In this document: piece after piece, positions 5,148-36,032 of the stretch
How positions within the stretch are numbered: position 1 is the first letter of the stretch
Layout of the letters: each line of letters starts with the position of its first letter
Assembly (NCBI RefSeq): GCF_014377975.1
Contig: NZ_JACMOO010000005.1
Location: forward strand, 1-38,635
Origin: Ferruginibacter sp.
GTDB lineage: Bacteria; Bacteroidota; Bacteroidia; Chitinophagales; Chitinophagaceae
Direction of reading: 5' to 3'
DNA: 38,635 bases
Made by a program: the position numbers and the translations under genes
The notes under the pieces: generated by a model
Databases searched by the model: none
What the model was told of the DNA's origin: nothing
What the model saw: the letters and a program-made list of their open reading frames with translations, nothing else

Positions 5148-5151
5148 CAAG

Positions 5152-5225
5152 TCGGGACGACAAGATTCGAACTTGCGACCCCCAGACCCCCAGCCTGGTG
5201 CGCTACCGGCCTGCGCTACGTCCCG
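5152..5225 (-). tRNA. tRNA-Pro (anticodon GGG)
   Basis: A 74-base cloverleaf on the minus strand: acceptor stem CGGGACG/CGTCCCG with discriminator A, D stem GCGC/GCGC, anticodon stem CCAGG/TCTGG with loop CTGGGGG (anticodon GGG, U33 present), variable loop GGGTC, and T arm GCAAG-TTCGAAT-CTTGT. CCA is not encoded. The C1-G72 pair is typical of tRNA-Pro. Its 3' end faces the recombinase remnant, the usual side for integration into tRNA genes. Confidence 0.95.
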
Positions 5226-5331: not shown

Positions 5332-6606
5332 ATGAAGGTTTTAATCAGGCAAACTACTATCGTCCATTCTGCTTCACCGTTTAACGGTCTCCTAAAAGAT
5401 ATTTTTATCGAAGATGGCATTATTCAACTCATTGCCGATTCCATTACGGAGCCGGCAGACCTTGTAATTGAACAGCCCAATCTGCACACCAGCATTGGCT
5501 GGATGGATGTGTACAGTCATTTTTGCGACCCCGGATACGAATATAGGGAAACGCTGGAAACGGGTGCCAACGCGGCTGCCGCCGGGGGTTTCACAGATGT
5601 GTTAGTGATACCTAATACCAACCCGGTAGTGCATACTAAATCACAGGTGGAGTATATTATTCAAAAATCAAATACCTTGGTTGTCAACATTCATCCATTG
5701 GGAGCGGTTACAAAAAATGCTGCCGGGGCCGAACTTGCTGAAATGTATGATATGCGCCGGTCAGGAGCAGTGGCCTTCACAGATGGAACAAACAGCATTC
5801 AATCACCTGGACTGTTGCTGAAAGCACTGCAGTATGTATTGGCTTTTGATGGAACTATTGTTCAGGTGGCAGATGATAAAAGTATTCAGCCGCAGGGTTT
5901 AATGAATGAAGGTATTATCAGCACACAACTGGGCTTACCCGGCAAACCTGCCATTGCTGAAGAGCTGATGATTGCAAGAGATATTGAACTGGTAAAATAC
6001 ACCCATTCAAAAATTCATTTTACAGGCATCTCAACAAAAAAAGGAATGGAGCTGATCAGGGAAGCAAAGTCATCCGGCCTGCAGGTAAGCTTTTCGGTAA
6101 CGCCGTATCATGCGGTGTTTTGTGATGAAGACCTTGCTGATTATAATACCAACCTGAAAGTAAATCCGCCTTTAAGAACAAGGGAAGATATGATGGCAGT
6201 AAGATTGGCTATTTTGCGGGGCGAAGCCGATGCGATAGCAAGCCACCATATCCCCCGAAATTATGATAGCAAAGTATGCGAATTTGAATACGCTAAAAAT
6301 GGAATGACGGGACTGGAAACTGTGTTTGGTGCCATCGGTAATTGTTTACCTTTAAATGAACAGGGTTGGACTGTTGAAAAAATTATTACTCTTTTAAGTG
6401 AGGCTCCCAGAAAAATTTTTAATATCGCCGTACCAGAATTAAAAGTAGGAGCAACCGCTGTACTTACCCTGTTTAACCCGGCAACTGAATATATTTTTGA
6501 TGAAAAAATGATTGCCTCAAAATCGAAAAATACCCCTTTTACCGGCATGCCCTTAAAAGGAAAAGTAATAGGAATTATTAACGGAAATAAAACGCATTTT
6601 AATTAA
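5332..6606 (+). CDS. Dihydroorotase-family protein lacking the canonical metal ligands
   Basis: Class I dihydroorotase-like amidohydrolase of 424 residues, the normal length. The fold signature is clear: GYEYRETLETG (68-78), AAAAGGFTDVLVIPNTNPV (81-99), EGIISTQLGLPGKPAIAEE, NLKVNPPLRT (274-283) and KNGMTGLETVFGA. However, the usual DxHxH metal motif is D59-V-Y61-S-H63, the usual His-containing HCED/HAED site is VQVAD (177-181), the HxxH before the serine reads H229-F-T-G232, and the catalytic Asp of SDHAPH is H305 (SHHIPR). Bacteroidetes are known to carry such degenerate homologues annotated as pyrC. It may be a non-catalytic partner in pyrimidine synthesis or a divergent enzyme. DUF4199 follows after one base, so the two are translationally coupled. 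Confidence 0.85.
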   Translation: MKVLIRQTTIVHSASPFNGLLKDIFIEDGIIQLIADSITEPADLVIEQPNLHTSIGWMDVYSHFCDPGYEYRETLETGANAAAAGGFTDVLVIPNTNPVVHTKSQVEYIIQKSNTLVVNIHPLGAVTKNAAGAELAEMYDMRRSGAVAFTDGTNSIQSPGLLLKALQYVLAFDGTIVQVADDKSIQPQGLMNEGIISTQLGLPGKPAIAEELMIARDIELVKYTHSKIHFTGISTKKGMELIREAKSSGLQVSFSVTPYHAVFCDEDLADYNTNLKVNPPLRTREDMMAVRLAILRGEADAIASHHIPRNYDSKVCEFEYAKNGMTGLETVFGAIGNCLPLNEQGWTVEKIITLLSEAPRKIFNIAVPELKVGATAVLTLFNPATEYIFDEKMIASKSKNTPFTGMPLKGKVIGIINGNKTHFN

Positions 6607-6607
6607 G

Positions 6608-7108
6608 ATGAAGCAAACAACCCCTGCACAAAAAGGCTTGCTTACCGGTGCGCTGATGATTGCTGCATCGCTGTTTTCATTGTACGTTTTAAAGAACCCG
6701 GTAGAGAGTTATTTTCAATACATCATATACAGTATATTTTGTTTTGGCATTGTGTTTAGTATGGTAGTTTATTACAGAACCGCAACAGACAAAAAAAGCT
6801 TTGCAAACTTTTTTTCTATTGGCTTTAAAACCTTTGTGGTAGTGAGTTTATTAATGGCTGCGTTTGCCTTTGTTTATTTTAGTTTTAATACTGAATTCAG
6901 GGATAAACAAATTGCAGAAAACAGCCGGCTGCTTATATTACAAGGAAATCATTTACCAAAGGAAATTAAGGACCAGGAAGCGCTGCAAAAGAAAGTATTT
7001 CTTACAATGATGATTTCTATTTCTATTTTCAGGTATCTTATTTTGGGTGCGTTAATCACTGTTATTGCCGCGGGATTTTTAAGTAAGAAAAATTCGGGCG
7101 ATGGCTGA
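6608..7108 (+). CDS. DUF4199 family integral membrane protein
   Basis: A 166-residue membrane protein with four hydrophobic segments at about 9-26, 36-55, 68-91 and 128-158. There is a soluble charged stretch between the third and fourth (about 92-127). The opening KGLLTGALMIAASL and overall layout match DUF4199, a Bacteroidetes-specific family of unknown function. It starts one base after the dihydroorotase-like gene. DUF4199 genes are often found beside a GT2 glycosyltransferase in this phylum, as here. Confidence 0.8.
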   Translation: MKQTTPAQKGLLTGALMIAASLFSLYVLKNPVESYFQYIIYSIFCFGIVFSMVVYYRTATDKKSFANFFSIGFKTFVVVSLLMAAFAFVYFSFNTEFRDKQIAENSRLLILQGNHLPKEIKDQEALQKKVFLTMMISISIFRYLILGALITVIAAGFLSKKNSGDG

Positions 7109-7226: not shown

Positions 7227-7282
7227 CCAAAATAAAATCGCAGGGTATTTTTTACATCAGGAAATTGCGTAAACAAAAAAAT

Positions 7283-8227
7283 ATGATGGATCTGTCAGTG
7301 ATAGTGCCGCTTTTAAACGAAGACGAATCTTTACCCGAGTTAGCAGCCTGGATTGAAAGAGTTATGATAGCTAATAATTTCAGCTATGAAATAATTATGG
7401 TGGATGATGGCAGCAACGATAATTCATGGCAGGTAATTGAATCGCTGCATAAAAATAATGACAAGATTCGCGGCATCCGGTTTCAAAGAAATTATGGTAA
7501 AAGTGCTGCGCTGAATGAGGGATTTAAAGCAGCTCTGGGCGAGGTAGTGATAACGATGGACGCAGATATGCAGGATAGTCCCGATGAAATACCCGGCCTG
7601 CGGCGCATGATTGTGGAGGAAGGTTTTGATATGGTGAGCGGCTGGAAAAAGAAACGCTTTGACAACAAGCTCACAAAAAATTTACCTTCTAAATTATTTA
7701 ATTCGGCAGCCAGCAGATCGAGCGGAATTGCACTGCACGATTTTAATTGCGGGCTAAAAGCGTATAAAAATAAAGTAGTGAAAAGTGTAGAAGTGTATGG
7801 CGAAATGCACCGCTATATTCCTGTACTGGCAAAGTGGGCCGGCTTTAAAAAAATTGGCGAAAAGGTAGTGGAACACAGACCCAGAAAATATGGGGTTACA
7901 AAATTTGGCTGGAGCCGTTTTATAAATGGATTTTTAGATCTGGCAAGCATTATGTTCATGGGTAAATTTGGTAAAAAACCGATGCATATTTTTGGTCTTT
8001 GGGGAAGCATTGTATTTTTTGCGGGAACCTGTATCTGGATATATTTATTTTTAGCTAAAATATTTTTCGACAAATTTAATATGACAGACCGTCCACTTTT
8101 TTATGTGGGCATCATCTCCATCGTAATTGGTACACAATTATTTTTAGCGGGTTTTTTAGGCGAGCTGATAGCAAGAAATTCGAATGATAGAAATTACTAT
8201 TTGATAGAAGAAAAGCTGGGTATATGA
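7283..8227 (+). CDS. Family 2 glycosyltransferase with C-terminal membrane anchors (DPM1/GtrB-like)
   Basis: Transfers a sugar from a nucleotide donor, probably to a polyprenyl phosphate or a glycan at the inner membrane. The GT-A fold shows SVIVPLLNEDESLPEL near the N-terminus, the VDDGSND donor site, FQRNYGKSAALNEGF and the metal-binding DAD of ITMDADMQDSPDE. Two membrane helices follow near the C-terminus (IFGLWGSIVFFAGTCIWIYL and VGIISIVIGTQLFLAGFLGE). This matches the DPM1/GtrB/ArnC subgroup. The ATG at 7283 (or 7286) is preferred over an in-frame TTG at 7265 because the family starts right before the first strand. It precedes the heptose cluster on the same strand, suggesting a role in the same surface glycan. 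Confidence 0.9.
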   Translation: MMDLSVIVPLLNEDESLPELAAWIERVMIANNFSYEIIMVDDGSNDNSWQVIESLHKNNDKIRGIRFQRNYGKSAALNEGFKAALGEVVITMDADMQDSPDEIPGLRRMIVEEGFDMVSGWKKKRFDNKLTKNLPSKLFNSAASRSSGIALHDFNCGLKAYKNKVVKSVEVYGEMHRYIPVLAKWAGFKKIGEKVVEHRPRKYGVTKFGWSRFINGFLDLASIMFMGKFGKKPMHIFGLWGSIVFFAGTCIWIYLFLAKIFFDKFNMTDRPLFYVGIISIVIGTQLFLAGFLGELIARNSNDRNYYLIEEKLGI

Positions 8228-8823: not shown

Positions 8824-8945
8824 GAAACGCTGATTAAGCAGACTAAAACGGATAAAGCATTTTTTTTCTTTGGTTTTTTTATCCGTTGTATCAGTGTCAA
8901 TCTGTGGCATCAGCGTCTCTATTAAATCAGTTTCATCAGTGTTCT
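8824..8945. repeat. GxxExxY-associated imperfect inverted repeat, downstream
   Basis: AAACGCTGATTAAGCAGAC and AAAACGGATAAA are mirrored by TTTTTATCCGTTGTATCAG and GGCATCAGCGTC across a T-rich centre. This gives a long imperfect hairpin. A further CATCAGTGTT follows. The final bases supply the GTG start codon of the next glycosyltransferase, so the element abuts or has replaced that gene's leader. Confidence 0.65.
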
Positions 8946-10081
8946 ATCAAAAAAAAATCATCATCATCGGGCCTGCACATCCACTTCGTGGAGGGCTTGC
9001 ATCTTATAACGAACGGCTGGCAAAAGAATTTTTGCAGCAGGGACATCAGGTTAGTATTTACACTTTTTCATTACAATATCCCGGATTTTTATTTCCGGGT
9101 ACTACACAGTTTTCTACCGAACCGGCACCTGCAGATTTAGATATCCATGTTTGCATAAATACTGTTAATCCCCTTAACTGGATCAGCGTTGGCCTGGAAT
9201 TAAAAAAGCAACGGCCAGATTTAATTGTAGTACGTTACTGGCTGCCGTTTATGGGGCCTTGCCTTGGAAGCATTTTACGCATTGCAAAGAAAAACAAACA
9301 TACCAAAGTAGTGTGCATAGCCGACAATATTATACCGCATGAAAAGCGCATGGGTGACATCGTTTTCACCAAATATTTCGTATCACCTGTGGATGGGTTT
9401 ATCACCATGAGTGAAAAAGTACTTACCGATCTTGGACAATTTGCGAAAGGCAAACCGGCTAAATTTGTTGCACATCCATTATATGATAATTTTGGAGAGA
9501 AGATTAGTAAAGAAGAAGCAAGAAGTAAATTAAAAATTAATAATGAAGAATTAATAATTTTATTTTTTGGGTTTATAAGAAGGTACAAGGGGCTGGATAT
9601 TTTACTGGATGCAATGAAGCTTTTGCAGAAAGGCGATAATTACCGCACTCCCAGACTTTTAATAGCAGGTGAATTTTACGAAGACCGAAAAACCTACGAT
9701 GAGCAGATTGAGCAGCTGGGCATAAAAGACATGCTTATTTTAAGAACTGAATTTATTGCAGACAGTGAAGTGAAATATTATTTAAGTGCCGCAGATTTAG
9801 TGGTACAACCTTACCGAAACGCCACCCAAAGCGGCGTAACGCCCTTAGCTTATCATTTTGAAAAACCAATGATTGTTACCAATGTGGGCGGATTGGCTTC
9901 AATGGTGCCGGATGATAAAGTTGGATTGATTGCGGAACCAAATGCTGAATCCATAGCAGCAAAAATCACGGAATATTTTTATAAAGGATCGGCGTATTTT
10001 ATACCATATTTAATTGAAGAAAAGAAAAAATATAGCTGGAGTAAAATGGCCATAAGTATTCTTGAATTAGTTGGCTTATAA
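8939..10081 (+). CDS. Family 4 (GT-B) glycosyltransferase
   Basis: A retaining GT4-like enzyme, about 380 residues from the GTG at 8939. Seen: an N-terminal GPAHPLRGGLASYNERLA (nucleotide-sugar transferase start), a central FFGFIRRYKGLDILLDAM that opens the C-terminal Rossmann domain, and QPYRNATQSGVTPLAYHF followed by KPMIVTNVGGL, the donor-sugar binding region. GTG 8939 is chosen because the upstream 23 codons are encoded by the repeat element and are low-complexity Ser/Val-rich. It precedes the heptose-kinase gene by 77 bases on the same strand, so a role in adding heptose or another sugar to the same glycan is plausible, but the acceptor and donor cannot be read. Confidence 0.88.
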   Translation: MFYQKKIIIIGPAHPLRGGLASYNERLAKEFLQQGHQVSIYTFSLQYPGFLFPGTTQFSTEPAPADLDIHVCINTVNPLNWISVGLELKKQRPDLIVVRYWLPFMGPCLGSILRIAKKNKHTKVVCIADNIIPHEKRMGDIVFTKYFVSPVDGFITMSEKVLTDLGQFAKGKPAKFVAHPLYDNFGEKISKEEARSKLKINNEELIILFFGFIRRYKGLDILLDAMKLLQKGDNYRTPRLLIAGEFYEDRKTYDEQIEQLGIKDMLILRTEFIADSEVKYYLSAADLVVQPYRNATQSGVTPLAYHFEKPMIVTNVGGLASMVPDDKVGLIAEPNAESIAAKITEYFYKGSAYFIPYLIEEKKKYSWSKMAISILELVGL

Positions 10082-10158: not shown

Positions 10159-11184
10159 ATGATTTATAGAAGTAAAGCTCCTTTACGCATCGGGTTGGCA
10201 GGCGGTGGCACAGATGTTAGTCCGTACAGCGATGAATATGGTGGTGCCATTTTAAATGCCACGGTTTCGCTTTCGGCCCATGCCAGTATTGAACCCCTGC
10301 AGGAAAATACTATTATTGTGGAGGCACTCGACCGGAAAGAAGAAGAACGTTACGATTGGGCACCTGCCCTACCCATTAATGGAAAATTGGATTTACTGAA
10401 AGGTGTGTACAACCGCATTCATGCCATGTATGGATTGCCATTAACGGGTTTCCGTTTATCTACTTTTGTAGATGCACCAGCGGGCTCCGGTCTTGGTACG
10501 TCCTCTACCCTTGTGGTGGCTATTTTGGGAGCTTTTGTTGAGTTGTTGAAATTACCACTGGGCGATTATGATATTGCTCATCTTGCATACCAGATTGAAC
10601 GGGAAGACCTGCAACTCGCCGGTGGCAAGCAGGACCAGTATGCTGCAACTTTTGGCGGAGTTAATTTCATGGAATTTTATGGCGATGATAAAGTGATTGT
10701 AAATCCGCTGCGCATTCGCCCGGAATACCTGCACGAACTGGGCAATAATTTGGTACTATATTTTACTGCCACTTCCAGAGAGAGTGCACACATTATTAAA
10801 GAGCAGGTAAAAAATGTAAACAATAAAGATGAAAAAAGCATCAAAGCCATGCACCAGTTAAAGGAGCAGGCTAAAATGATGAAGGAAGCTTTATTAAAAG
10901 GCAGATTAAACGAAATAGGAGAAATACTGGATTTTGGTTTTGAACAAAAACGCAGGATAGCCCACAATATCAGCAACGAGACCATTGAATTAATTTATAC
11001 GGCGGCTAAAAAATCCGGCGCTACCGGTGGCAAAATCAGTGGAGCCGGTGGCGGTGGCTTTATGATATTTTATTGTCCCGGAAACACCCGCTATGCCGTG
11101 ATAGAAACTTTGAATACTTTTGGCGGCGAAATCAAAAATTATACTTTCACCAAATATGGTTTAACCACCTGGACAATTAGCTGA
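10159..11184 (+). CDS. hddA: D-glycero-alpha-D-manno-heptose 7-phosphate 1-kinase (GHMP kinase)
   Basis: GHMP-superfamily sugar kinase of 341 residues, the normal HddA length. It would phosphorylate heptose 7-phosphate at C1 in the alpha configuration. Motif 1 is LRIGLAGGGTDVSPY (9-23), motif 2 the ATP-binding PAGSGLGTSS (107-116), then GGKQDQYAATFGG (155-167), and motif 3 KISGAGGGGFM (292-302). The GGGTDVxPY signature separates HddA-like kinases from galactokinases; L-fucokinase-type kinases are a less likely alternative. Its context (gmhA, gmhB-like and hddC-like genes within 7 kb) supports the heptose assignment. The stop codon overlaps the next start by one base (TGATG), so the pair is translationally coupled. 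Confidence 0.87.
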   Translation: MIYRSKAPLRIGLAGGGTDVSPYSDEYGGAILNATVSLSAHASIEPLQENTIIVEALDRKEEERYDWAPALPINGKLDLLKGVYNRIHAMYGLPLTGFRLSTFVDAPAGSGLGTSSTLVVAILGAFVELLKLPLGDYDIAHLAYQIEREDLQLAGGKQDQYAATFGGVNFMEFYGDDKVIVNPLRIRPEYLHELGNNLVLYFTATSRESAHIIKEQVKNVNNKDEKSIKAMHQLKEQAKMMKEALLKGRLNEIGEILDFGFEQKRRIAHNISNETIELIYTAAKKSGATGGKISGAGGGGFMIFYCPGNTRYAVIETLNTFGGEIKNYTFTKYGLTTWTIS

Positions 11185-11906
11185 TGTGGATCAAATTTTT
11201 TTTAATACAGAAAACAAAAGCACTTTTCAGTCTTTTTAAATTGCATGTACTGGTTGAACCGTTTAGTGGTTTTCTTTTAAACCTTGCCTACCTGTCCAAA
11301 CAATCCAAATGGATCAACCAGCAAAAAGGGCTGGCTTACAATGATTTTTTTAGCGGCAATCGTTCAAGGGAAAAAAGGCTTGGATTATATCAATATCTCA
11401 ATAAAGAATTTATCAAAGATCAACCTATGAATTACCTGGAATTTGGTGTGGCCAATGGTGGCTCATTTTACTGGTGGTTAAAAAATCATCCCAATCAGCA
11501 ATCAACCTTTTCAGGCTTTGATACTTTTTCAGGATTGCCGGAAGACTATGGCCCTTTTAAAAAAGGAGATATGAGCAATGGCAATGCACCATTAAAAACA
11601 GATGATACAAGAGCCTTTTTTTACCAGGGATTATTTCAACAGACTTTACCTGGATTTTTAAAAAGCTTTAATAATGAAAAACGCACGGTCATTCACATGG
11701 ATGCAGACCTGTACTCTTCTACCCTTTTTACCTTAACTTCTTTTGCGCCTTATTTAAAAAAAGGCGATATCATTTTATTTGATGAATTTTGTGTACCAAC
11801 CCATGAATTTTTAGCAGTTAAAAATTTTACGGAATCGTACTATATTAATTTAAAACCTATTGCTGCCGCCAACAACTTTTTATTTACTGCCTTGCAGGTA
11901 ATTTAA
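11184..11906 (+). CDS. TylF-like SAM-dependent methyltransferase
   Basis: A 240-residue class I methyltransferase related to the TylF/MycF sugar O-methyltransferase family. The SAM site is MNYLEFGVANGGSFYWW, followed by FSGFDTFSGLPEDYGPF and the metal-binding VIHMDADLYSSTLFTL, then GDIILFDEF. In characterised members the Asp pair binds Mg2+ next to the sugar hydroxyl. The gene overlaps hddA by one base and lies 7 bases before gmhA, so it is embedded in the heptose operon. This suggests, as inference, that it methylates a heptose or the glycan that contains it. Confidence 0.82.
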   Translation: MWIKFFLIQKTKALFSLFKLHVLVEPFSGFLLNLAYLSKQSKWINQQKGLAYNDFFSGNRSREKRLGLYQYLNKEFIKDQPMNYLEFGVANGGSFYWWLKNHPNQQSTFSGFDTFSGLPEDYGPFKKGDMSNGNAPLKTDDTRAFFYQGLFQQTLPGFLKSFNNEKRTVIHMDADLYSSTLFTLTSFAPYLKKGDIILFDEFCVPTHEFLAVKNFTESYYINLKPIAAANNFLFTALQVI

Positions 11907-11913
11907 TAATTAT

Positions 11914-12507
11914 ATGAATCAAAAAATTGCAGATCGCATCAATGCTTCTATTGCAGTAAAACAAAATTTACTTGCAGATGAAAAAATCATTGCCACCATC
12001 ACTGAAAGTGTTGCCGTGATTGTGCACGCCTTTAACAATGGCAATAAAGTATTGTTTTGTGGCAATGGTGGCAGCGCAGCAGATGCACAACATTTGGCGG
12101 CTGAATTCAGCGGCCGTTTTTATATCGACAGGGATGCACTACCTGCAGAAGCCTTGCATTGCAACACCAGTTATTTAACGGCAGTAGCAAATGATTATAA
12201 TTTTAATTTAATTTATTCCAGGTTGATAAAAGGGCTTGGTAAAAAAGGTGATGTACTGGTTGGTTTAAGTACATCCGGTAACAGTGCCAATATTATAAAT
12301 GCATTTGAAACAGCCAGAGAAAAAGAAATGATCACCATTGGTTTTACCGGTTTTACCGGTGGTGCCATGAAAGTGATTTCAGACTATTTGCTCAACGTTC
12401 CATCAACCGATACACCCCGGATACAGGAAAGTCATATTTTACTTGGCCACATTATTTGCGAACTGGTAGAAGAAGAACTCTTTGGCCATACAGCCGCGGC
12501 TAACTGA
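11914..12507 (+). CDS. gmhA: Phosphoheptose isomerase
   Basis: Converts sedoheptulose 7-phosphate to D-glycero-D-manno-heptose 7-phosphate, the first step of heptose synthesis. A SIS-domain protein of 197 residues, the usual length. Active-site residues line up with the known enzyme: CGNGGSAADAQHLAAEFSGR (49-68) with H60 and E64, D94 in VANDYNF, STSGNSANI (119-127), and RIQESHILLGHI with Q171 and H179. Follows the TylF-like gene by 7 bases. DiaA-like paralogues share the fold but lack the full metal/active-site set. Confidence 0.93.
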   Translation: MNQKIADRINASIAVKQNLLADEKIIATITESVAVIVHAFNNGNKVLFCGNGGSAADAQHLAAEFSGRFYIDRDALPAEALHCNTSYLTAVANDYNFNLIYSRLIKGLGKKGDVLVGLSTSGNSANIINAFETAREKEMITIGFTGFTGGAMKVISDYLLNVPSTDTPRIQESHILLGHIICELVEEELFGHTAAAN

Positions 12508-12803
12508 TCGTTGCATTCAATTCATGCTGGCATGTTTAGCATGGCATCAAAAAAAGCTGAGTATTTTTATTGATCGCTTTTCATAAAATCCTCCCTGTTT
12601 AAACTTCGGATATGTGCTGCCGAAGAGCAATAAAAAGTATCAGTATTTTGTAATAGCAGGTTTTACAAGTTACTTTTAAATGTCATCATTTAAAAGTATT
12701 TTCAATAAATATCTTCTGTCAACTCCACCAAAGTGGGGCAGGCAAATCAATGAAATTCATTTGGTACTATCTCACCACCCAGACAAAAAACGGTTCAGCA
12801 TTT

Positions 12804-14189
12804 ATGAAAAATATTTCCCTGGCAATTGTTTGTTTTCTTTTTTCGACGGTCGTAAATGGACAACAAGATAGTAACAAAACGTTATTATCCAAATTAGACA
12901 TGGACTACCTTGAAACCCTTACCAGGGATGTAATGGAAAGTTCCAGGATTTATCCCAGGCAAAAGATTAGCGATGATTTTGGCAGCAACAATACAGGTAT
13001 AGTACTGATAAGGCCAGGCGGACGAAGCAGTTACCCGGCCTATTGGATAAGAGACTATGCAATGTCAATAGAGAGTGGTTTTGTAACAACTGAAGAACAA
13101 AAACAACTGCTGCTATTAACGGCAAAAACACAGTGTGATCAAACATGGATTTCAAATGCAGGCAGTATGATCCCTGTTGGTGCAATCGCAGATCATATCA
13201 GGATGGATGACAGCAAACCTATTTTTTTTCCGGGAACCTACGACTATCATGAACAGGGAGGAAAAACCTGGGGAATGACTCCGCCGTATTGTGATCAATA
13301 TTTTTTTATTCACATGGCTTATTATTATGTAACGGTTACTGCATCAGCCAAATTTTTACTTCAGCAAATTAACGGCCTACCATTAATTGACCGGCTGGAA
13401 ATGGCCTACAAAGTACCACCAACCCGCCAGGATAGCACTGCAGTATACACCATAGACGATTTCAGGGGCGTTGATTTTGGATTCAGGGATGTGATTACTA
13501 TGACCGGTGAACTTTGTTTTCCGTCCCTGTTAAAATACCGGGCTTCTGTAGAATTGGCGGAGTTATTTGAATTAATTAACCGGAAAGACAAACCCCATTT
13601 TTACAAAACAATCGCCGCCAGTTTAAAACACGCAATTCCCCGGATTTTTTACGATGGCCGGGGGATGTTGCTGGCCTCAACCGGCAAGAGCAGGCAAGCT
13701 GATGTATGGAGTACAGCGATGGCTGTGTATCTGGGAGTGTTGGAAGGAGATCAGTTGACGAAGACCTGCCAGTTTCTTTGCCGGGCGTATAAGGGTGGAT
13801 GGCTATCTGCTAAAGGAAATATAAGGCATGTACTTACCATTGATGATTACAATGATTCAACCGCCTGGGAAAATAGTTTAGTGCCAAAAAACAGGTATCA
13901 GAATGGCGCCTATTGGGGCACTGCCACCGGGTGGGTATGCTTTGCAATTGCCAAAGCAGATATGAACGCAGCAAAACAACTGGCCAAAGAATACATCGCT
14001 GATTTGCGTGGAGGTGACTATAGAAAGGGGCCTGAATTTGGTGCGCCCTGGGAATGTTATAATAAAGACACTCCGCAAAATGCAGTGTACATTGCTTCTG
14101 TTAGCTGCCCTTTTATCGCATTTAAAAAGCAATCATTGGCAGGCAGTAAAATTCCTTTAAAAAATAGTAAAAAGTTCAGGGTACAATAA
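12804..14189 (+). CDS. Secreted putative glycoside hydrolase of the six-hairpin (alpha/alpha)6 type
   Basis: A 461-residue exported protein with a signal peptide (MKNISLAIVCFLFSTVVNGQ). The start at 12804 is chosen over an in-frame ATG at 12750 because it places the signal peptide first. The mature part has the look of an (alpha/alpha)6 glycosidase: YPAYWIRDYAMSIESG, TPPYCDQYFFIHMAYYY, DVWSTAMAVYLGVLEGD, YQNGAYWGTATGWVCFAIAK and GAPWECYNKDTPQNAVYIAS. WIRDY and the acidic residues near PWECYN are candidate catalytic positions. I cannot place it in a numbered GH family. It lies 47 bases before the alpha-L-fucosidase, suggesting a joint role in degrading a fucosylated glycan. A gap of about 300 bases without recognisable features separates it from gmhA. 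Confidence 0.65.
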   Translation: MKNISLAIVCFLFSTVVNGQQDSNKTLLSKLDMDYLETLTRDVMESSRIYPRQKISDDFGSNNTGIVLIRPGGRSSYPAYWIRDYAMSIESGFVTTEEQKQLLLLTAKTQCDQTWISNAGSMIPVGAIADHIRMDDSKPIFFPGTYDYHEQGGKTWGMTPPYCDQYFFIHMAYYYVTVTASAKFLLQQINGLPLIDRLEMAYKVPPTRQDSTAVYTIDDFRGVDFGFRDVITMTGELCFPSLLKYRASVELAELFELINRKDKPHFYKTIAASLKHAIPRIFYDGRGMLLASTGKSRQADVWSTAMAVYLGVLEGDQLTKTCQFLCRAYKGGWLSAKGNIRHVLTIDDYNDSTAWENSLVPKNRYQNGAYWGTATGWVCFAIAKADMNAAKQLAKEYIADLRGGDYRKGPEFGAPWECYNKDTPQNAVYIASVSCPFIAFKKQSLAGSKIPLKNSKKFRVQ

Positions 14190-14235
14190 TCAATCAACTA
14201 AATAAACACAATAAATCAGCCACAAAAATTGCTTT

Positions 14236-16002
14236 ATGATTAAACAAATTATTGCCTTTTTTATTTGTATTTTACTATATGCTGCAACAGTTTCAGCACA
14301 ATCTGCTGTGGCAACGCCGGCAGAAAATCTAAAAACAAAATGGTTTAGGGAAGCCAGATTTGGAATGTTTATTCACTGGGGCCTGTTCGCCCAACACGCA
14401 GGTACTTACAAAGGAAAAAAATATTATGGCATCAGCGAATGGCTGCAGGAAAGGGCTAAAATTCCGGCCAAAGAATACGAAAAATTTGCAGCGGAATTTA
14501 ACCCTGTAGATTTTAATGCTGCGCAATGGGTAAGCTTTGCGAAAGCCTCCGGCATAAAATACATAGTTATTACAGCCAAACACCATGAGGGTTTTGCCAT
14601 GTTTAAATCAATGGTATCTGCCTTTAATATTGTAGATGCTACTCCTTATAAAAAAGATCCGATGAAAGAGCTGGCGGCAGAATGCAAAAAGGCCGGCATC
14701 AGGTTAGGCTTTTACTATTCACAATTCCAGGATTGGCACGAGCCCAATGGTGGTGGCAATGATTGGGACTTTGATAATACAAAAAAGGACTACCCTGTTT
14801 ATTATGCCACCAAAGCGATTCCTCAAATAAAAGAACTGCTCACCAATTATGGAGACCTTGGACTTATATGGTTTGATACACCCGGAGATATGACGCAGGA
14901 ACAGTCAAAGGAATTTTTAAAAAAAGTGAAGGACTGGCAACCCAACTGCCTCGTGAGCAGCCGCGTGGGTAACGGGTTGGGAGATTATACTGATTTCGGT
15001 GACGGCGAAGTGCCGGCCGGTGTAGTAAAAGGTCCGTGGGAAGCAATTTTTACACACAATGATTCATGGGGATATTCGTCGTTTGACAATAATTTTAAAA
15101 CCCCCAAAGAGATCATCCGTCTGCTTACCACTATTTCTTCAAAGGGAGGCAACCTTTTATTGAATATCGGCCCCATGGCCAATGGCAAAATTCCGGATCT
15201 GTCGCAAAAATATTTTTTAGAAACGGGTAAATGGTTGATTAAAAACGGGCAGAGCATTTATGGTACTACCTGTTCACTCATCAAACCGCAGCCATGGGGT
15301 GTTACCACCAATAAGCCAGGTAAACTTTTTATACATATTTTTCAATCCCCACTGAACGGTAAGATTACTATTCCTGTAAAAGGATTAACCCTTCATTCAG
15401 TTTACTGGCTTTCCAATAAAAAACCGGTAGCTGCTGCAATGAAATCAACAGGTTTGCAATTGCAGTTACCGCCACTGTTGCCCGATACGAGAGATGCGGT
15501 TGTAGTAGTGGAGTATAGTGGTACAATGGTTGAAAATTACGATACACCTGAAGTGTGGAGCAGGCAATACCCGGAATTTTACCTGCTGCCGGATTATGCA
15601 ACAGTCAAGGGCAATGCAACCATCAGCACAGTAACCTACTCTCATTATTTTGGCGACTGGAAGCATGCGGTTTGCATAAAAAATTTACAGTCGCCAACAG
15701 ATGAAGTGAGTTTTGAAATTCAGGTAAAAGAAAAAGGCGATTATAAAATTACCCTTGAATATGCAGCCGATAAAAACAGTGAAGGCGAAGAAGGAATATT
15801 GGAAATAGCCGGTCAGCAATTTCCCTTTCAGGTACTTAAAACGGGTGAGTATGATGAATGGAAACCCTTGTCATGGATCAGGCAGACAGTAGCAATCTTA
15901 TCCGTTACACAACCCAGGCTTTATACACTGAAAATAAAGCCCGCCAGAGCAGGCAGGGAATTGTTCAATTTAAAAAGAATCATTGCAGAACCTGTTGAGT
16001 AA
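14236..16002 (+). CDS. Secreted alpha-L-fucosidase, GH29
   Basis: Hydrolyses terminal alpha-L-fucose with retention. Signal peptide at residues 1-22 (core IIAFFICILLYAATVSA). The GH29 barrel shows WFREARFGMFIHWG (36-49), ITAKHHEGFAMF (112-123), RLGFYYSQFQDWHE (156-169) and the nucleophile region LIWFDTPGDM with D214. SSKGGNLLLNIGP is also typical. The C-terminal 200 residues look like beta-sandwich modules that may bind carbohydrate. Total length of 588 is at the long end for the family. Likely periplasmic or surface-exposed. It interrupts the heptose genes together with the preceding glycosidase. Confidence 0.93.
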   Translation: MIKQIIAFFICILLYAATVSAQSAVATPAENLKTKWFREARFGMFIHWGLFAQHAGTYKGKKYYGISEWLQERAKIPAKEYEKFAAEFNPVDFNAAQWVSFAKASGIKYIVITAKHHEGFAMFKSMVSAFNIVDATPYKKDPMKELAAECKKAGIRLGFYYSQFQDWHEPNGGGNDWDFDNTKKDYPVYYATKAIPQIKELLTNYGDLGLIWFDTPGDMTQEQSKEFLKKVKDWQPNCLVSSRVGNGLGDYTDFGDGEVPAGVVKGPWEAIFTHNDSWGYSSFDNNFKTPKEIIRLLTTISSKGGNLLLNIGPMANGKIPDLSQKYFLETGKWLIKNGQSIYGTTCSLIKPQPWGVTTNKPGKLFIHIFQSPLNGKITIPVKGLTLHSVYWLSNKKPVAAAMKSTGLQLQLPPLLPDTRDAVVVVEYSGTMVENYDTPEVWSRQYPEFYLLPDYATVKGNATISTVTYSHYFGDWKHAVCIKNLQSPTDEVSFEIQVKEKGDYKITLEYAADKNSEGEEGILEIAGQQFPFQVLKTGEYDEWKPLSWIRQTVAILSVTQPRLYTLKIKPARAGRELFNLKRIIAEPVE

Positions 16003-16096
16003 GCGATGACAGGGCATTGGGAATACAGAATACTATTTATTTAGCAGGATCATTTACCTTGCAATTTGTATATGTATTTTAAAACTAACAAAAATA

Positions 16097-16861
16097 ATGA
16101 TTAAAACAGCCATCATATTAGCGGGCGGCCTGGGCACCCGTTTACGCAGCGCAGTGGCCGATTTACCTAAATGCATGGCACCCGTAAACGGGCTGCCGTT
16201 TATTCATTTTGTAATAGCGTTGTTGCAAAAAGAAGGCATAGAAAATTTCATCTTTTCATTGGGTTATAAAAGCGAGGCCATTATCAGTTATGTAGATACT
16301 CAATATCCTGTGCTGCAAAAAAAATATGTTATTGAAACAAAACCCCTGGGTACCGGCGGTGCAATAAAAGCAGCGTGTAAACAGGTAACAGAAAAAAACG
16401 TGGTGGTGGTAAATGGTGATACCTTGTTTCATATAAACATAGCTGAACTGTCCCGGTTTCATGAAACACATGATGCCAGCTGTACCATTGCGCTTAAAGA
16501 AATGAAAAGCTTTGACAGGTATGGTGCTGTGGAATTAAACAATGATCAATCCATAAAAGCATTTAAAGAAAAACAATTTTGTGAAAGCGGCACCATCAAC
16601 GGCGGTGTATATGCGTTAACGTTAGCCACCATACTTACCGGAGATTACCCGGAAGTTTTTTCTTTTGAAAAAGAATATCTTGAAAAAAACACAGGAAATG
16701 GAAAGCTGTATGGTGTAATCAACAATGATTATTTTATAGATATTGGCATCCCCGAAGATTACCAGTGTTTTCAGGATGATTACAAAGCAATCATTGCAAA
16801 AAATAATTTGTCCTCCTCACACAATGCTACTTCAGCATTTTTAAATGCATTAACCGTATGA
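16097..16861 (+). CDS. hddC: Heptose 1-phosphate nucleotidyltransferase (HddC/RmlA-like)
   Basis: Sugar-phosphate nucleotidyltransferase of 254 residues. N-terminal AIILAGGLGTRLRSAVADLP with K and PM..PVNGLPF, the KPLGTGGAIKAA donor loop, VVNGDTLF (metal Asp) and INGGVYAL are all visible. By position next to a GmhB-like phosphatase (4-base ATGA overlap) and an HddA kinase in the same cluster it is most likely D-glycero-alpha-D-manno-heptose 1-phosphate guanylyltransferase, giving GDP-heptose. The nucleotide specificity (GTP against other NTPs) cannot be read with certainty; related enzymes act on mannose or glucose phosphates. Confidence 0.8.
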   Translation: MIKTAIILAGGLGTRLRSAVADLPKCMAPVNGLPFIHFVIALLQKEGIENFIFSLGYKSEAIISYVDTQYPVLQKKYVIETKPLGTGGAIKAACKQVTEKNVVVVNGDTLFHINIAELSRFHETHDASCTIALKEMKSFDRYGAVELNNDQSIKAFKEKQFCESGTINGGVYALTLATILTGDYPEVFSFEKEYLEKNTGNGKLYGVINNDYFIDIGIPEDYQCFQDDYKAIIAKNNLSSSHNATSAFLNALTV

Positions 16862-17403
16862 ACGCTTTTTTAACAGACAATAGCTGGACTCTTTTTTTAG
16901 ACCGGGATGGAGTGATCAACCATGAACAAAAGGATGGATATATAAATACCTGGGAAGATTTTACATTTTATGAAGGAGCCAAAGAAGCATTAAAAATATT
17001 TGCTGCCCGTTTTAAATACATCATCATTGTTACCAACCAGCGGGGCGTAGGCCGTGGCATTACCAAACTGGAAAACCTGCACATTGTTCATCAAACTATG
17101 ACCAAAGAAGTTACTGCCGCCGGTGGCAGAATTGATGAAATATATTTTTGTACCGATGTTGATGTAAACAGTGCAAACCGAAAACCCAATACGGGCATGG
17201 CTTTACAGGCAAAAAATAATTTTACCGATATTGATTTTTCAAAATCAGTTATGGTTGGTAATAATTTTAGCGATATGGAATTTGGCCGCAGCATAGGAGC
17301 AAAAACTTTTTTTTTAACTACGACAAATGCAGGTGTAACGGCGTCCGATGGGCGAATTGACGCAGTATATCCTTCCCTGATTGATTTTGCAAAAAGCCTG
17401 TAA
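16858..17403 (+). CDS. gmhB: HAD-IIIA phosphatase, GmhB-like (heptose 1,7-bisphosphate 7-phosphatase)
   Basis: A 181-residue HAD hydrolase expected to remove the 7-phosphate from heptose bisphosphate. Motif I is FLDRDGVINHE (D15, D17), motif II IIVTNQRGVGRG (T59), then RKPNTGM (108-114). It differs from classical GmhB in two ways. The zinc loop with its CxH...CxC ligands is missing (only C98 remains, in YFCTDVDVNSAN), and the first acidic residue of motif IV is Asn (VGN135NFSD139). It overlaps the hddC-like gene by four bases (ATGA). The pathway position is convincing; activity should be regarded as probable. Confidence 0.82.
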   Translation: MNAFLTDNSWTLFLDRDGVINHEQKDGYINTWEDFTFYEGAKEALKIFAARFKYIIIVTNQRGVGRGITKLENLHIVHQTMTKEVTAAGGRIDEIYFCTDVDVNSANRKPNTGMALQAKNNFTDIDFSKSVMVGNNFSDMEFGRSIGAKTFFLTTTNAGVTASDGRIDAVYPSLIDFAKSL

Positions 17404-17474: not shown

Positions 17475-18488
17475 ATGAAGAAATTGTATTTATTTGTAGT
17501 ATGTATTATAAGTATACACTGGTGTTTTTCGCAAGGTCTTCAAAAAAATGAAGAGTTTTTTTTACAGCAAAAAGAGGATTCTTTAAAGACGTATGCCAAA
17601 GATATAATTCAGGCTATTAACCCTCAAAACCGTTTTAATGCAGACAGTCTTTTTACAAAAATGTTTGTGCGGGCATTAAAAGTAACCGGTTCATTTAACT
17701 ACCCGTTTGATAGCCTGGAAACCATTTCAAAACTATATCCCCCCGATAGCAGCTTTCGCATATTTACCTGGCAGATGGTGATCAATGATAATATTATCCG
17801 CCAGCATGGTGCCATACAAATGAAGACGGTGGATGGCTCTTTAAAATTATTTCCATTGATTGATAAATCAGATGTGACCATCAATATTGAGGATACCGTT
17901 GGTAATAATAAAGGCTGGATTGGTGCTGTATATTACAGGATTATTGAAACAAAAAATGCCCACAAAAACTATTATACCTTACTGGGCTTTGATGAAAATA
18001 ACATTCGCAGTAACCGTAAAATTATTGAGGTATTAAGTTTTAATAACGGCGAACCCGAGTTTGGTGGCCGTTATTTTAATTTCGATAACGACGCTGTGAA
18101 GCAGCCTGCAATAAGCCGTTACATCCTGGAGTACAAAAAATCAACCGGGCCACGGCTTACCTATGATGAGAATTTAGGCATGATTATTTTTGAACATCTG
18201 GAAAGTGAAAGCAACGAACCAAAAAAGAAATGGACTTTGATACCTGATGGGGATTATGAGGGATTTAAGTGGAACAACGGTCAATGGGTACATGTAGAAA
18301 AAGTATTCAATCAAATAACTCCTGAAGGTCAGGAACCGGTTCCAAGGCCGCTGAAAGATACACAGGGCGATTTAAAGGAAGATAAATTACTGGACGATGC
18401 TCCTGCTGAAAAAGCAACTGTTGAAGAAATGCCCGCTACCAGTAAGAAACCAAAAGTTATCAAGAAGAAAGTAAAGCCAGGTGTATAA
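17475..18488 (+). CDS. Secreted conserved protein of unknown function
   Basis: A 337-residue protein with a signal peptide (MKKLYLFVVCIISIHWCFSQ, cleaved after FSQ). The mature protein is mixed alpha/beta, with strand-rich parts (WIGAVYYRIIET, YYTLLGFDENN, PEFGGRYFNF), and it ends in a low-complexity acidic then Lys/Pro-rich tail (KKPKVIKKKVKPGV). The family is not recognised. It resembles hypothetical exported proteins common in Chitinophagaceae. It is 71 bases after gmhB on the same strand, so co-transcription is possible. Confidence 0.8.
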   Translation: MKKLYLFVVCIISIHWCFSQGLQKNEEFFLQQKEDSLKTYAKDIIQAINPQNRFNADSLFTKMFVRALKVTGSFNYPFDSLETISKLYPPDSSFRIFTWQMVINDNIIRQHGAIQMKTVDGSLKLFPLIDKSDVTINIEDTVGNNKGWIGAVYYRIIETKNAHKNYYTLLGFDENNIRSNRKIIEVLSFNNGEPEFGGRYFNFDNDAVKQPAISRYILEYKKSTGPRLTYDENLGMIIFEHLESESNEPKKKWTLIPDGDYEGFKWNNGQWVHVEKVFNQITPEGQEPVPRPLKDTQGDLKEDKLLDDAPAEKATVEEMPATSKKPKVIKKKVKPGV

Positions 18489-18567: not shown

Positions 18568-19800
18568 ATGGCTATAAAGTCTTGTATTCAATTTACTGGT
18601 TTGCTATTTTTACATTCATTCCTTTTTGCCCAAACCGCATTAAAGCCATTTCCTCAACACGCAGATTATTTTAAGGGGGTTATTAAGCCCAACCATATTT
18701 CTCAACAGCAACTTGATAAAAGCGTAGGCTCATTTTATGATAACTGGAAACAGCGATATATTAATGACGATGCGGGCAAGGGCCAATATTATATCTGGAC
18801 AGAAGGTGCAACTGGTAAAAATAAATGTGTTTCAGAAGGACAAGGTTATGGAATGATAATAGTTGCCTTGATGGCGGGATATGATACCGCATCTCAGAGA
18901 ATCTATAATGGTTTGTATCGTTACTACAAAGCGCACCCTAGTACTAATAGCAAATATTTGATGGCATGGGCTCAGACAAATTTGTTTAAAAATGCGGATG
19001 GCAGCTCAGCTTCAGACGGAGATATTGATATAGCTTATTCTTTATTACTTGCAGATGGTCAGTGGGGCAGCCAGGGAAATATTAATTATTTAAAAGAGGC
19101 GAAAGCAATTTTAGCTGCAATAATGCAACAGGAAATTAATTCCAATACATTTTCAGTATTACTTAGCAATTCAATTGAGTATGACAGTAAGGACTATTTT
19201 GATATGCGTTCTTCTGACTTTATGCCTGCCCATTTTAAAGCCTTTGGAAATATAATTGATACCAAACTTTGGAACAATGTAAATGACAGAAATTATAAAC
19301 TTTTTATTTCTTTACAAAAAAAATATAGTCCCGAGGCTGGCCTGGTTCCCGATTTTATTCAGCATATAAATAGTAAACCAACACCATCCCGTGCAAATTA
19401 TCTTGAGTCTAAATATGATGGAAATTATAATTACAATGCCTGCCGGGTTCCCTGGCGTATTGCCACAGACTATATTATTAACGGAGATAACCGGTCGAAA
19501 GCATTTGTTGAAAAAATAAATACATGGATTCGCAATACCACCGAAAATAATCCTGATAATATTTCTGCCGGCTATACTTTAGCAGGAGACGACATGCGCA
19601 AGCGAAATTTTGAAGCGATGAGTTTTATCAGTTCTTTTGCAGTTTCGGCAATGGTGGATTTTAAAAATCAATCCTGGCTAAATAAACTATGGGATTATAT
19701 TATTGGTTTTGATCTGGACCAATATGACTATTACGATAATACCATTAAGATGTTTACCATTATAATATTATCTGGAAATTACTGGGCTCCTTCCAGTTAG
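18568..19800 (+). CDS. Secreted glycoside hydrolase family 8
   Basis: An inverting (alpha/alpha)6 glycosidase of 410 residues with a signal peptide (core about 8-20, FAQ cleavage site). The proton donor E90 lies in CVSEGQGYGM, and DGDIDIAYSLLLADGQWGS carries the conserved acidic cluster (D150, D152). RVPWRIATDYI and GYTLAGDDM follow. GH8 members act on cellulose, chitosan, lichenan or xylo-oligosaccharides; substrate cannot be read from the sequence. Exported, and last in the run of plus-strand genes. It may be part of polysaccharide processing with the GH29 and the six-hairpin protein. Confidence 0.9.
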   Translation: MAIKSCIQFTGLLFLHSFLFAQTALKPFPQHADYFKGVIKPNHISQQQLDKSVGSFYDNWKQRYINDDAGKGQYYIWTEGATGKNKCVSEGQGYGMIIVALMAGYDTASQRIYNGLYRYYKAHPSTNSKYLMAWAQTNLFKNADGSSASDGDIDIAYSLLLADGQWGSQGNINYLKEAKAILAAIMQQEINSNTFSVLLSNSIEYDSKDYFDMRSSDFMPAHFKAFGNIIDTKLWNNVNDRNYKLFISLQKKYSPEAGLVPDFIQHINSKPTPSRANYLESKYDGNYNYNACRVPWRIATDYIINGDNRSKAFVEKINTWIRNTTENNPDNISAGYTLAGDDMRKRNFEAMSFISSFAVSAMVDFKNQSWLNKLWDYIIGFDLDQYDYYDNTIKMFTIIILSGNYWAPSS

Positions 19801-34867: not shown

Positions 34868-35251
34868 TTAGCAAACAAGCTGCTCATACAATTTCTCCAA
34901 TGTTTGCCCTGGATTTTTACAAAATCCAGGATGTACTTTTGATGTTTGAATAACTGTACTTCTGGTTGCGGTAAGCCACCTGAAACGGGCTGCGATATCC
35001 AGTTTTGCAATTGGCCCTGCTTCACGATCGCCCGCGCATATACGCTGCATGGCATCCAGGTGTTGCAGCAATTCCTCCTTATCTGTTTTAACACAAAATG
35101 CAGCCAGGCGATGTTGGTTTAAGCAACTGATGGTTTGCAAAAACTGTTGCCTGGCGCAATAGAGTATTACCCCCACATTCAGAAATTCTTCCCGCTCTAC
35201 CCTGGGCACAATACGAATAACCGCGTATTCAAATAGTTGATTTTGCTGCAT
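34868..35251 (-). CDS. DUF3037 family protein
   Basis: A 127-residue cytosolic protein. EYAVIRIVPRVEREEFLNVG followed by VILYCARQQF is the defining start of DUF3037, and the C-terminal IQTSKVHPGFCKNPGQTLEK also fits the family. Function unknown. Its start overlaps the end of the HipA-like kinase gene by 23 bases, which implies tight co-expression. HipA-like kinase plus DUF3037 is a recurrent pair in bacteria. Confidence 0.82.
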   Translation of the reverse strand: MQQNQLFEYAVIRIVPRVEREEFLNVGVILYCARQQFLQTISCLNQHRLAAFCVKTDKEELLQHLDAMQRICAGDREAGPIAKLDIAARFRWLTATRSTVIQTSKVHPGFCKNPGQTLEKLYEQLVC

Positions 35252-36032
35252 GCTGCGCTTCTTTTACAAAAATGTCTGAATGTGTACTACGGGTTTCTAA
35301 AAACTGAATATATACCTGCCGGTATTCTTCTACTGATTGAAAGGAAGTGTCTGCTGCAAGCCATTCTTCAGGAATTGAATATACGATACTGCGGATAATA
35401 TCCTTGCTGAGTAAGGTGCGGAACACCGCATCTACTTCCGGCAGCCTTGTTGCCTGTTGCAACAATACATGATCTTTTATCAGAACAAAGGGCCGCATGG
35501 CCTGATCCTTCCAGTTTTGCCAGTTGTGGTGAAAATACAAACATGCCCCATGATCTATCAGCCATAATTCTTTATGCCACCATAACATATTTGTATTGCG
35601 AACGGTACGGTCCATATTGGTTAACAGGCAATCGAGCCAAACAATCTGCGAAGCAAGTAAAGCGTCAACAGCCGTTACGGCCGGATCAAAAGTAACAGAG
35701 CCTGAAAGATAGTGCAGACCAAGGTTTAAGCCTGTGCTGGCTTTTAATAAATCCTGTATTTCTTCATCCGGTTCTGTTCTGCCAAAGGCCTCGTTTATAT
35801 TTGCAAAAACAATTTCCGGCACCCGAAAACCCAATGCCCTGGCTATTTCGCCTCCAATCAATTCGGCAATCAGCGCTTTAATTCCCTGCCCCGCCCCCCT
35901 GAATTTAAGCACGTATAAAAAATCATCTGCTGCTTCAACAATGGCTGGCAGCGAACCTCCTTCCCGAAGCGGCGTTACATACCGTGTTATTTCAACGGTT
36001 CTTATCTGCAGCTGAATACTATCTGTATGCAT
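35229..36032 (-). CDS. HipA-like kinase
   Basis: A 267-residue protein of the HipA-like serine/threonine kinase fold. Candidate ATP-binding Lys is K43 in DFLYVLKFRGAGQG; LIAELIGGEIARALGFRVPE follows as the helix of the N-lobe. The catalytic loop is LLTNMDRTVRNTNMLW with D141 and N146/N148, and the metal-binding Asp is D160 in ELWLIDHGACLYF. It is shorter than E. coli HipA (about 440) and lacks the HipA N-terminal subdomain. The next gene, DUF3037, overlaps it by 23 bases and may regulate it. No HipB-like antitoxin is seen. Substrate unknown. Confidence 0.83.
   Translation of the reverse strand: MHTDSIQLQIRTVEITRYVTPLREGGSLPAIVEAADDFLYVLKFRGAGQGIKALIAELIGGEIARALGFRVPEIVFANINEAFGRTEPDEEIQDLLKASTGLNLGLHYLSGSVTFDPAVTAVDALLASQIVWLDCLLTNMDRTVRNTNMLWWHKELWLIDHGACLYFHHNWQNWKDQAMRPFVLIKDHVLLQQATRLPEVDAVFRTLLSKDIIRSIVYSIPEEWLAADTSFQSVEEYRQVYIQFLETRSTHSDIFVKEAQHAAKSTI

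Follow-up and report, generated by a model that had tools for sequence, protein, structure and literature searches.

The window analysed here is a stretch of 38,635 nucleotides from a Ferruginibacter sp. assembly (contig NZ_JACMOO010000005.1), and the genes for HddA, GmhA, HddC and GmhB all lie on its plus strand within positions 10159–17403. This block very probably encodes the guanosine diphosphate (GDP)-heptose pathway. Taken as a whole, the arrangement is explained best, and with good confidence, by the known GDP-heptose pathway feeding a conserved envelope glycan of the Chitinophagaceae. The destination of the heptose in a surface glycan is likely, and the conservation of this glycan, as opposed to variation from strain to strain, is moderately favoured. 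The first-pass annotation of this DNA had described four GDP-heptose enzymes in one 7-kb segment with two glycosyltransferases preceding them, and both statements are borne out: all four enzymes are encoded on a single strand, and the two glycosyltransferases were recovered by Pfam at 7265–8227 (GT2) and 8870–10081 (GT4). The same segment also holds a TylF-like methyltransferase and two glycosidase-like genes, which had gone unmentioned. The genes of the locus are the following:

7265–8227, plus strand: GT2 glycosyltransferase (PF00535)
8870–10081, plus strand: GT4 glycosyltransferase (PF00534)
10159–11184, plus strand: HddA (NF049969, 402 bits)
11184–11906, plus strand: TylF/CalS11-type sugar O-methyltransferase-like protein (PF05711, E 2e-9)
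11914–12507, plus strand: GmhA, sedoheptulose 7-phosphate isomerase (PRK13936, 211 bits; TIGR00441, 206 bits)
12750–14189, plus strand: (alpha/alpha)6 glycosidase-fold protein (predicted fold; without Pfam or NCBIfam match)
14236–16002, plus strand: GH29 alpha-L-fucosidase-family protein (PF01120, E 1.4e-86)
16097–16861, plus strand: HddC (NF049965, 231 bits)
16858–17403, plus strand: GmhB-like heptose 1,7-bisphosphate 7-phosphatase (PRK08942, 124 bits)
17475–18488, plus strand: conserved protein with no assigned family, at the downstream edge of the locus (without Pfam or NCBIfam match)

GmhA, HddA, GmhB and HddC would together yield the activated heptose, GDP-heptose, with catalysis by all four enzymes expected from the established families to which they belong. 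The activated sugar most likely enters an envelope glycan of wide conservation among the Chitinophagaceae, in whose assembly the adjoining GT2 and GT4 would take part.

Assignment of the four enzymes

The kinase HddA aligns with model NF049969 over positions 1–338 of 338 at 402 bits, with the runner-up model at 125 bits, and matches the solved structures PDB 3k85, 4usk, 4usm and 4n3o with E values of 1.1e-91 or lower. Mutation of R13, D22, S118–S120, Q162 and D163 inactivates WcbL (PMC4691232). These residues correspond to R10, D19, T114-S115-S116, Q158 and D159 in the window HddA, and R10, D19, S115, S116, Q158 and D159 are invariant in all 76 aligned rows, the window included. Position 114, where a threonine replaces the first of the three serines of WcbL, is Thr in 68 rows and Ser in the other 8. 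The guanylyltransferase HddC matches NF049965 (231 bits) and PDB 6jq8 (E 2.2e-44). The guanine in YpHddC is bound by Glu80 of the motif E-x-x-P-L-G-T-G-G-A (PMC6981941); the window protein reads ETKPLGTGGA, with its Glu also at position 80, and all 74 aligned rows have this residue.

The nearest solved relative of GmhA is PDB 2xbl (E 2.2e-58). Its zinc ligands, H61, E65, Q175 and H183 in the gonococcal numbering (PMC5387315), are present as H60, E64, Q171 and H179 in all 69 aligned rows. The gmhB gene overlaps that of HddC by 4 bases, and its product is the best of two GmhB matches in its own genome, with PDB 4pnh as the nearest solved structure (E 1.1e-19). The HAD residues D15 and D17 (motif I, DxD) and K109 are found in 63 of 63 rows, as is the Thr or Ser of motif II at position 59.

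The locus across the Chitinophagaceae

The source genome belongs to the Chitinophagaceae and is nearest to Ferruginibacter, the top relatives of its HddA (93% identical) being those of Ferruginibacter paludis and a Ferruginibacter metagenome-assembled genome. A total of 80 related loci (labels beginning with L) were compared, and distribution was followed in a family sample of 97 genomes, drawn evenly, from 91 genera and with the source genome included (labels beginning with G). Because the HddA model matches 11 of 14 control genomes at E 0.001, a strong HddA was defined in the family sample by an E value below 1e-80, and counting was done by hand. Strong HddA is present in 76 of the 97 genomes, and three more carry a divergent one (1e-42 to 1e-48). 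Across a phylum sample of 198 genomes, HddA matches below 1e-70 were seen in 6 of 8 same-family genomes versus 10 of 190 others. HddC (E 1e-30) is found in 80 of the 97 family genomes, among them 75 of the 76 with strong HddA, the single exception lying at a contig end. The two genes thus occur together in 75 genomes, are both missing in 16 and stand alone in 1 and 5, respectively (Fisher p = 4e-13).

All four pathway genes share one locus in 45 of the 76 HddA-positive genomes, and the complete order GT2-GT4-HddA-GmhA-HddC-GmhB-hyp337 is kept in 32, some of the shorter loci being truncated where the contig or the retrieved stretch ends. Of the 76 HddA-positive loci sorted by gene order, 42 have a counterpart of the conserved 17475–18488 protein following GmhB. 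Pairwise distances of six genes, calculated for 36 complete sets (the window and 35 of the 80 loci), correlate with r values of 0.32–0.64, and none of 1000 permutations reached values as high; such a correlation would be as expected for genes inherited together. Clustering is not obligatory, as HddA and HddC are widely separated in three genomes (G030, G058 and G077).

With strong HddA in 76 of the 97 genomes and a shared gene order, the locus is family-wide, common to much of the Chitinophagaceae, and this distribution speaks against a strain-variable capsule island or O-antigen. The alpha-branch interpretation offered earlier is partly supported: it agrees with the pathway, and the surface polymer predicted there is likely.

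Glycosyltransferases next to the heptose genes

GT2 shows two C-terminal hydrophobic stretches by eye, and its nearest solved relative is an ArnC-type undecaprenyl-phosphate glycosyltransferase (PDB 9hwj, E 2.7e-45). It has a match at E 1e-60 or lower in all 97 family genomes, in 96 of them with at least 61% identity and in G086 with only 37%. A GT4 homologue of at least 48% identity is present in 91 genomes, 16 of which are among the 21 that lack strong HddA. GT2 and GT4 were therefore rejected as transferases specific for GDP-heptose, as both persist in most genomes lacking HddA. GT4 is nevertheless associated with the presence of HddA (p = 0.0016 over the 97 genomes) and adjoins the HddA/HddC pair in 63 of the 76 HddA-positive genomes (50 as GT4-HddA, 12 as HddA-HddC-GT4 and 1 as HddA-GT4), so that a general link between GT4 and heptose remains. 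At the thresholds set, only 1 of the 403 positions of the window GT4 separates HddA-positive loci (66 rows) from HddA-negative ones (16 rows).

The rearranged HddA-HddC-GT4 type (15 rows, with two HddC-GT4 pairs located on other contigs) makes up one side of a starred branch of the GT4 tree. Fourteen changes in the presence of HddA/HddC are needed on this tree, a figure that is indicative only, as 39 of its 79 inner branches are open; as an indication, its starred branches would be compatible with a single origin of HddA/HddC.

GmhA and GmhB follow GT4 in 12 of the 16 HddA-negative loci that carry GT4, and the same spot is often occupied by GT2-GT4-GmhA-GmhB in HddA-negative genomes. Because these two genes stay behind GT4 in 12 of 16 cases, the neighbourhood can be read as a heptose locus in the wide sense, of which HddA and HddC would be the part that comes and goes. 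Two of the 12 loci hold something more. Locus L124 (G071) has the order GmhA-HddC-GmhB in a genome without any match to the HddA model at E 0.001, and resembles a branch being lost. Locus L120 (G040) has, in the usual place of HddC between GmhA and GmhB, an HddC-like match of only 21% identity. Among the four loci without GmhA and GmhB, those of G029 and G038 belong to genomes without either heptose branch, and G009 and G042 have an ADP (adenosine diphosphate)-type transferase.

An alternative destination of the heptose is a strain-variable capsule or O-antigen, for which GT2 and GT4 would be the polymer-specific transferases. GDP-heptose is used for the capsules of Campylobacter (PMC10680097) and for surface (S)-layer glycans (PMC5387315), the alpha-preferring GmhB of Bacteroides thetaiotaomicron has been linked to capsule (PMC8204981), and GT2 and GT4 do adjoin the heptose genes. 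A variable polymer is nonetheless unlikely in view of the 76 genomes with strong HddA, 45 of them with the four genes in one locus, of the correlated divergence of the six genes, and of glycosyltransferases kept in 96 (GT2) and 91 (GT4) of the 97 genomes at the identities given above. The Pfam scan, which covered 30 of the 44 open reading frames of the window, returned no Wzx, Wzy or export-ABC match among them, and such genes may lie elsewhere.

Heptose donors and lipopolysaccharide

HldD is over its cut-off in 75 of the 97 genomes and the HldE-type nucleotidyltransferase domain in 76 (81 with matches below 1e-20). The specificity of the models can be judged from the 14 control genomes, where the numbers of matches and of matches over the cut-off were 14 and 2 for HldD, 11 and 3 for rfaE_dom_II, 14 and 2 for HldA, and 3 and 3 for the Kdo transferase. 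The source genome (G000; 5.07 Mb in 437 contigs, 94% complete and 7% contaminated) and a genome of the same genus given as 100% complete (G033) have no rfaE_dom_II match. Their best matches to the HldD model (2.9e-35 and 4.2e-35, respectively) are below the cut-off, and those to the HldA model are 1.3e-8 and 1.1e-18, whereas four genomes of the ADP type reach 1e-93 to 6e-97. Judged by these models, GDP-heptose would be the only recognisable heptose donor in both genomes.

Over the whole family sample, HddA and rfaE_dom_II occur together in 64 genomes, HddA alone in 12, rfaE_dom_II alone in 17 and neither in 4. Their presence is independent (Fisher p = 0.74), and on these grounds the idea that the branches generally replace each other was rejected. 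Within the 12 genomes with the GDP branch only, HldD exceeds the cut-off in G007 and G053, and HldA is matched well in G058 and partially, at a contig end, in G032. The designation is clean for the genus of the window and less so for these four.

The source genome has a Kdo transferase match (E 6.7e-43) and one GT9-family match. The first-pass statement that this branch does not serve the inner core of lipopolysaccharide (LPS) was a generalisation from other bacteria; here, since a Kdo transferase is present and no ADP-heptose enzymes are recognisable in the source genome, GDP-heptose may be used in LPS. A donor exchange, by which GDP-heptose would supply the LPS core wherever the ADP-heptose branch has been lost, is somewhat less probable than the capsule alternative. 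It would agree with the Kdo transferase and GT9 matches, with ADP-heptose genes that do not pass the threshold in G000 and G033, and with the 12 genomes that have strong HddA and no clear rfaE_dom_II match. It would also agree with 11 of the 16 HddA-negative loci, where GmhA and GmhB occur in the absence of HddA and of any clear HddC (one locus shows the 21% HddC-like match), in genomes that all have rfaE_dom_II at E values below 1e-50. The 64 genomes with both branches argue against any general exchange, the LPS of the GDP-only genomes may simply be heptose-free, and no core transferase is known to use GDP-heptose, which also counts against it.

A narrower and slightly more doubtful variant is confined to the Ferruginibacter type, in which GDP-alpha-heptose would be the sole donor and would have taken over, from the same locus and with GmhA and GmhB shared by both branches, the conserved and possibly LPS-core glycan role that the ADP-beta branch has in relatives. 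If true, this takeover would require a GmhB that acts on either anomer despite lacking the usual metal site, together with transferases working with either supply.

Points that weigh against the assignment

Several observations count against a GDP-heptose pathway feeding a conserved glycan. All four enzymes score below the cut-offs of their models: HddA with 402 bits versus the equivalog cut-off of 600 for NF049969, a value that no genome of the family sample or of the 198-genome phylum sample reaches; HddC with 231 versus 300 bits for NF049965, yet clearly as its best model; GmhA with 211 versus 276 for PRK13936 and, just under, 206.4 versus 209.45 for TIGR00441; and GmhB with 124 versus 178 bits for PRK08942.

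GmhB is the weakest link, with its 124 bits, its absent metal-site residues and, in motif IV, an Asn in place of Asp. Solved GmhBs carry a C-x-H...C-x-C set, taken to be the zinc site; these residues are absent in the window protein and complete in none of the 56 near loci aligned. They are likewise incomplete in all 12 aligned HddA-negative loci, including genomes with only the ADP branch, and their absence was consequently rejected as a mark of the alpha branch. Four further aligned loci from outside the family sample of near relatives differ in this respect (L087, L092, L093 and L102). Motif IV of the window protein is GNNFSD (GNxxxD for GDxxxD) and misses the motif (G/S)DXX(N/T)D given for GmhB (PMC8204981). 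Position 135 is Asn in 61 of 63 rows, with one Asp and one gap, and the last Asp of the motif is kept in 62 of 63.

To these points are added the distribution itself and the genes around it. HddA is absent or only divergent in 21 of the 97 genomes, and HddA and HddC are both absent in 16, so the GDP branch is dispensable. The absences in the ADP branch rest mainly on G033, given the completeness and contamination of the source assembly. No heptosyltransferase, flippase, export or ligase gene could be assigned, the genome-wide search being limited to GT9.

It is highly improbable that HddC acts on another sugar 1-phosphate, for example mannose 1-phosphate, and that the product of the block is some other GDP sugar. 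Although the second-best NCBIfam model of HddC is mannose-1-phosphate guanylyltransferase (141 bits) and YpHddC was assayed with mannose 1-phosphate (PMC6981941), the heptose model scores 89 bits above this, 75 of the 80 genomes with HddC have strong HddA, and HddA itself reaches 402 bits, with the next family at 125.

Inserted and flanking genes

The gene for the TylF-like protein overlaps that of HddA by one base. Its nearest solved relatives are sugar O-methyltransferases (E about 1e-5 to 1e-6; CalS11, 4.2e-6), and the protein probably O-methylates a sugar of the envelope glycan in Ferruginibacter-like species. The gene was seen in four of the 80 loci (L004, L005, L006 and L008) and in 2 of the 76 HddA-positive genomes, G033 among them.

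The gap of about 3.6 kb between GmhA and HddC contains the two glycosidase-like genes, both of whose products have a signal-like N-terminus by eye. The 12750–14189 protein is one of a large family of uncharacterised proteins, with 1474 homologues, the best 120 of which are at least 64% identical to it. Its model is of moderate confidence (predicted local distance difference test, pLDDT, 71.7), and the best Foldseek matches are invertase InvB and GH116, with template modelling (TM) scores of about 0.5; the predicted fold would place it only in the broad (alpha/alpha)6 glycosidase class. Together with the GH29 gene it occurs in just two of the 80 loci (L004 and L005) and, of the 76 HddA-positive genomes, only in that of the window. 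Because of this restriction the pair was rejected as members of the pathway, and both genes are regarded as a probable local insertion of degradative genes.

Three further genes flank the locus:

5332–6606, plus strand: amidohydrolase-family gene
6608–7108, plus strand: DUF4199 gene
18568–19800, plus strand: GH8-family protein

A tRNA-Pro (GGG) gene lies at 5151–5225 on the minus strand, upstream of the amidohydrolase gene and antisense to a listed open reading frame. Farther away, at 34868–36032 on the minus strand, a HipA-like kinase domain protein (PF20613) overlaps a DUF3037 protein (PF11236), in a possible two-gene kinase module. Promoter-like sites in the window are near chance (53 versus a mean of 45.6 expected), as are terminator-like sites (16 versus 12.2), and a Bacteroidota promoter pattern gave 2 sites versus 2.7 expected.

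Comparison with known systems

GDP-heptose synthesis is known mainly from the capsules and S-layers of a few bacteria. Among the matches listed from the open-licence literature, none dealt with heptose in the Chitinophagaceae, Chitinophaga and Ferruginibacter included. For the general O-glycan of Bacteroidota, a common inner and a variable outer part have been described (PMC12871550), in a paper in which the word heptose was not counted; the metG and wzx flippase genes of its O-glycosylation locus (LFG) are not among the Pfam-scanned reading frames of the window.

The GDP-heptose route is established in Campylobacter (PMC10680097). The systems of Campylobacter and Aneurinibacillus share with the window the same four enzyme families, key residues and reaction order. 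The window differs from them in its host group, in a locus common to much of the family and in a GmhB without C-x-H...C-x-C, and its scanned reading frames gave no match to a sugar dehydratase or epimerase family. Bacteroides thetaiotaomicron belongs to the same phylum, and its HddA (PDB 3k85) aligns over the full length with that of the window (E 1.5e-100). Its GmhB prefers the alpha anomer, and a link to capsule is reported for that organism (PMC8204981).

Two parallel heptose pathways share GmhA (PMC5387315). The ADP-heptose pathway has both GmhA and GmhB in common with the window, and in 11 of the 16 HddA-negative relatives these two occupy the same spot with neither HddA nor a clear HddC. 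The HldA kinase, the rfaE_dom_II transferase and HldD of that pathway are, in contrast, not over threshold in G000 or G033. Set beside these systems, the pathway itself is already known, and mildly new is that it seems to be the sole heptose route in this genus. Beyond the first-pass annotation, the analysis adds that the locus is family-wide, that the ADP branch is lacking in the genus, that both glycosyltransferases persist where HddA is missing, and that GmhB is unusual. GDP-heptose synthesis would thus be a widespread trait of the Chitinophagaceae (76 of the 97 genomes sampled), and in some of these bacteria no other heptose route is recognisable. The chemical prediction is D,D-heptose in a shared envelope glycan, and natural GDP-only, ADP-only and double genomes are available in the family to be compared.

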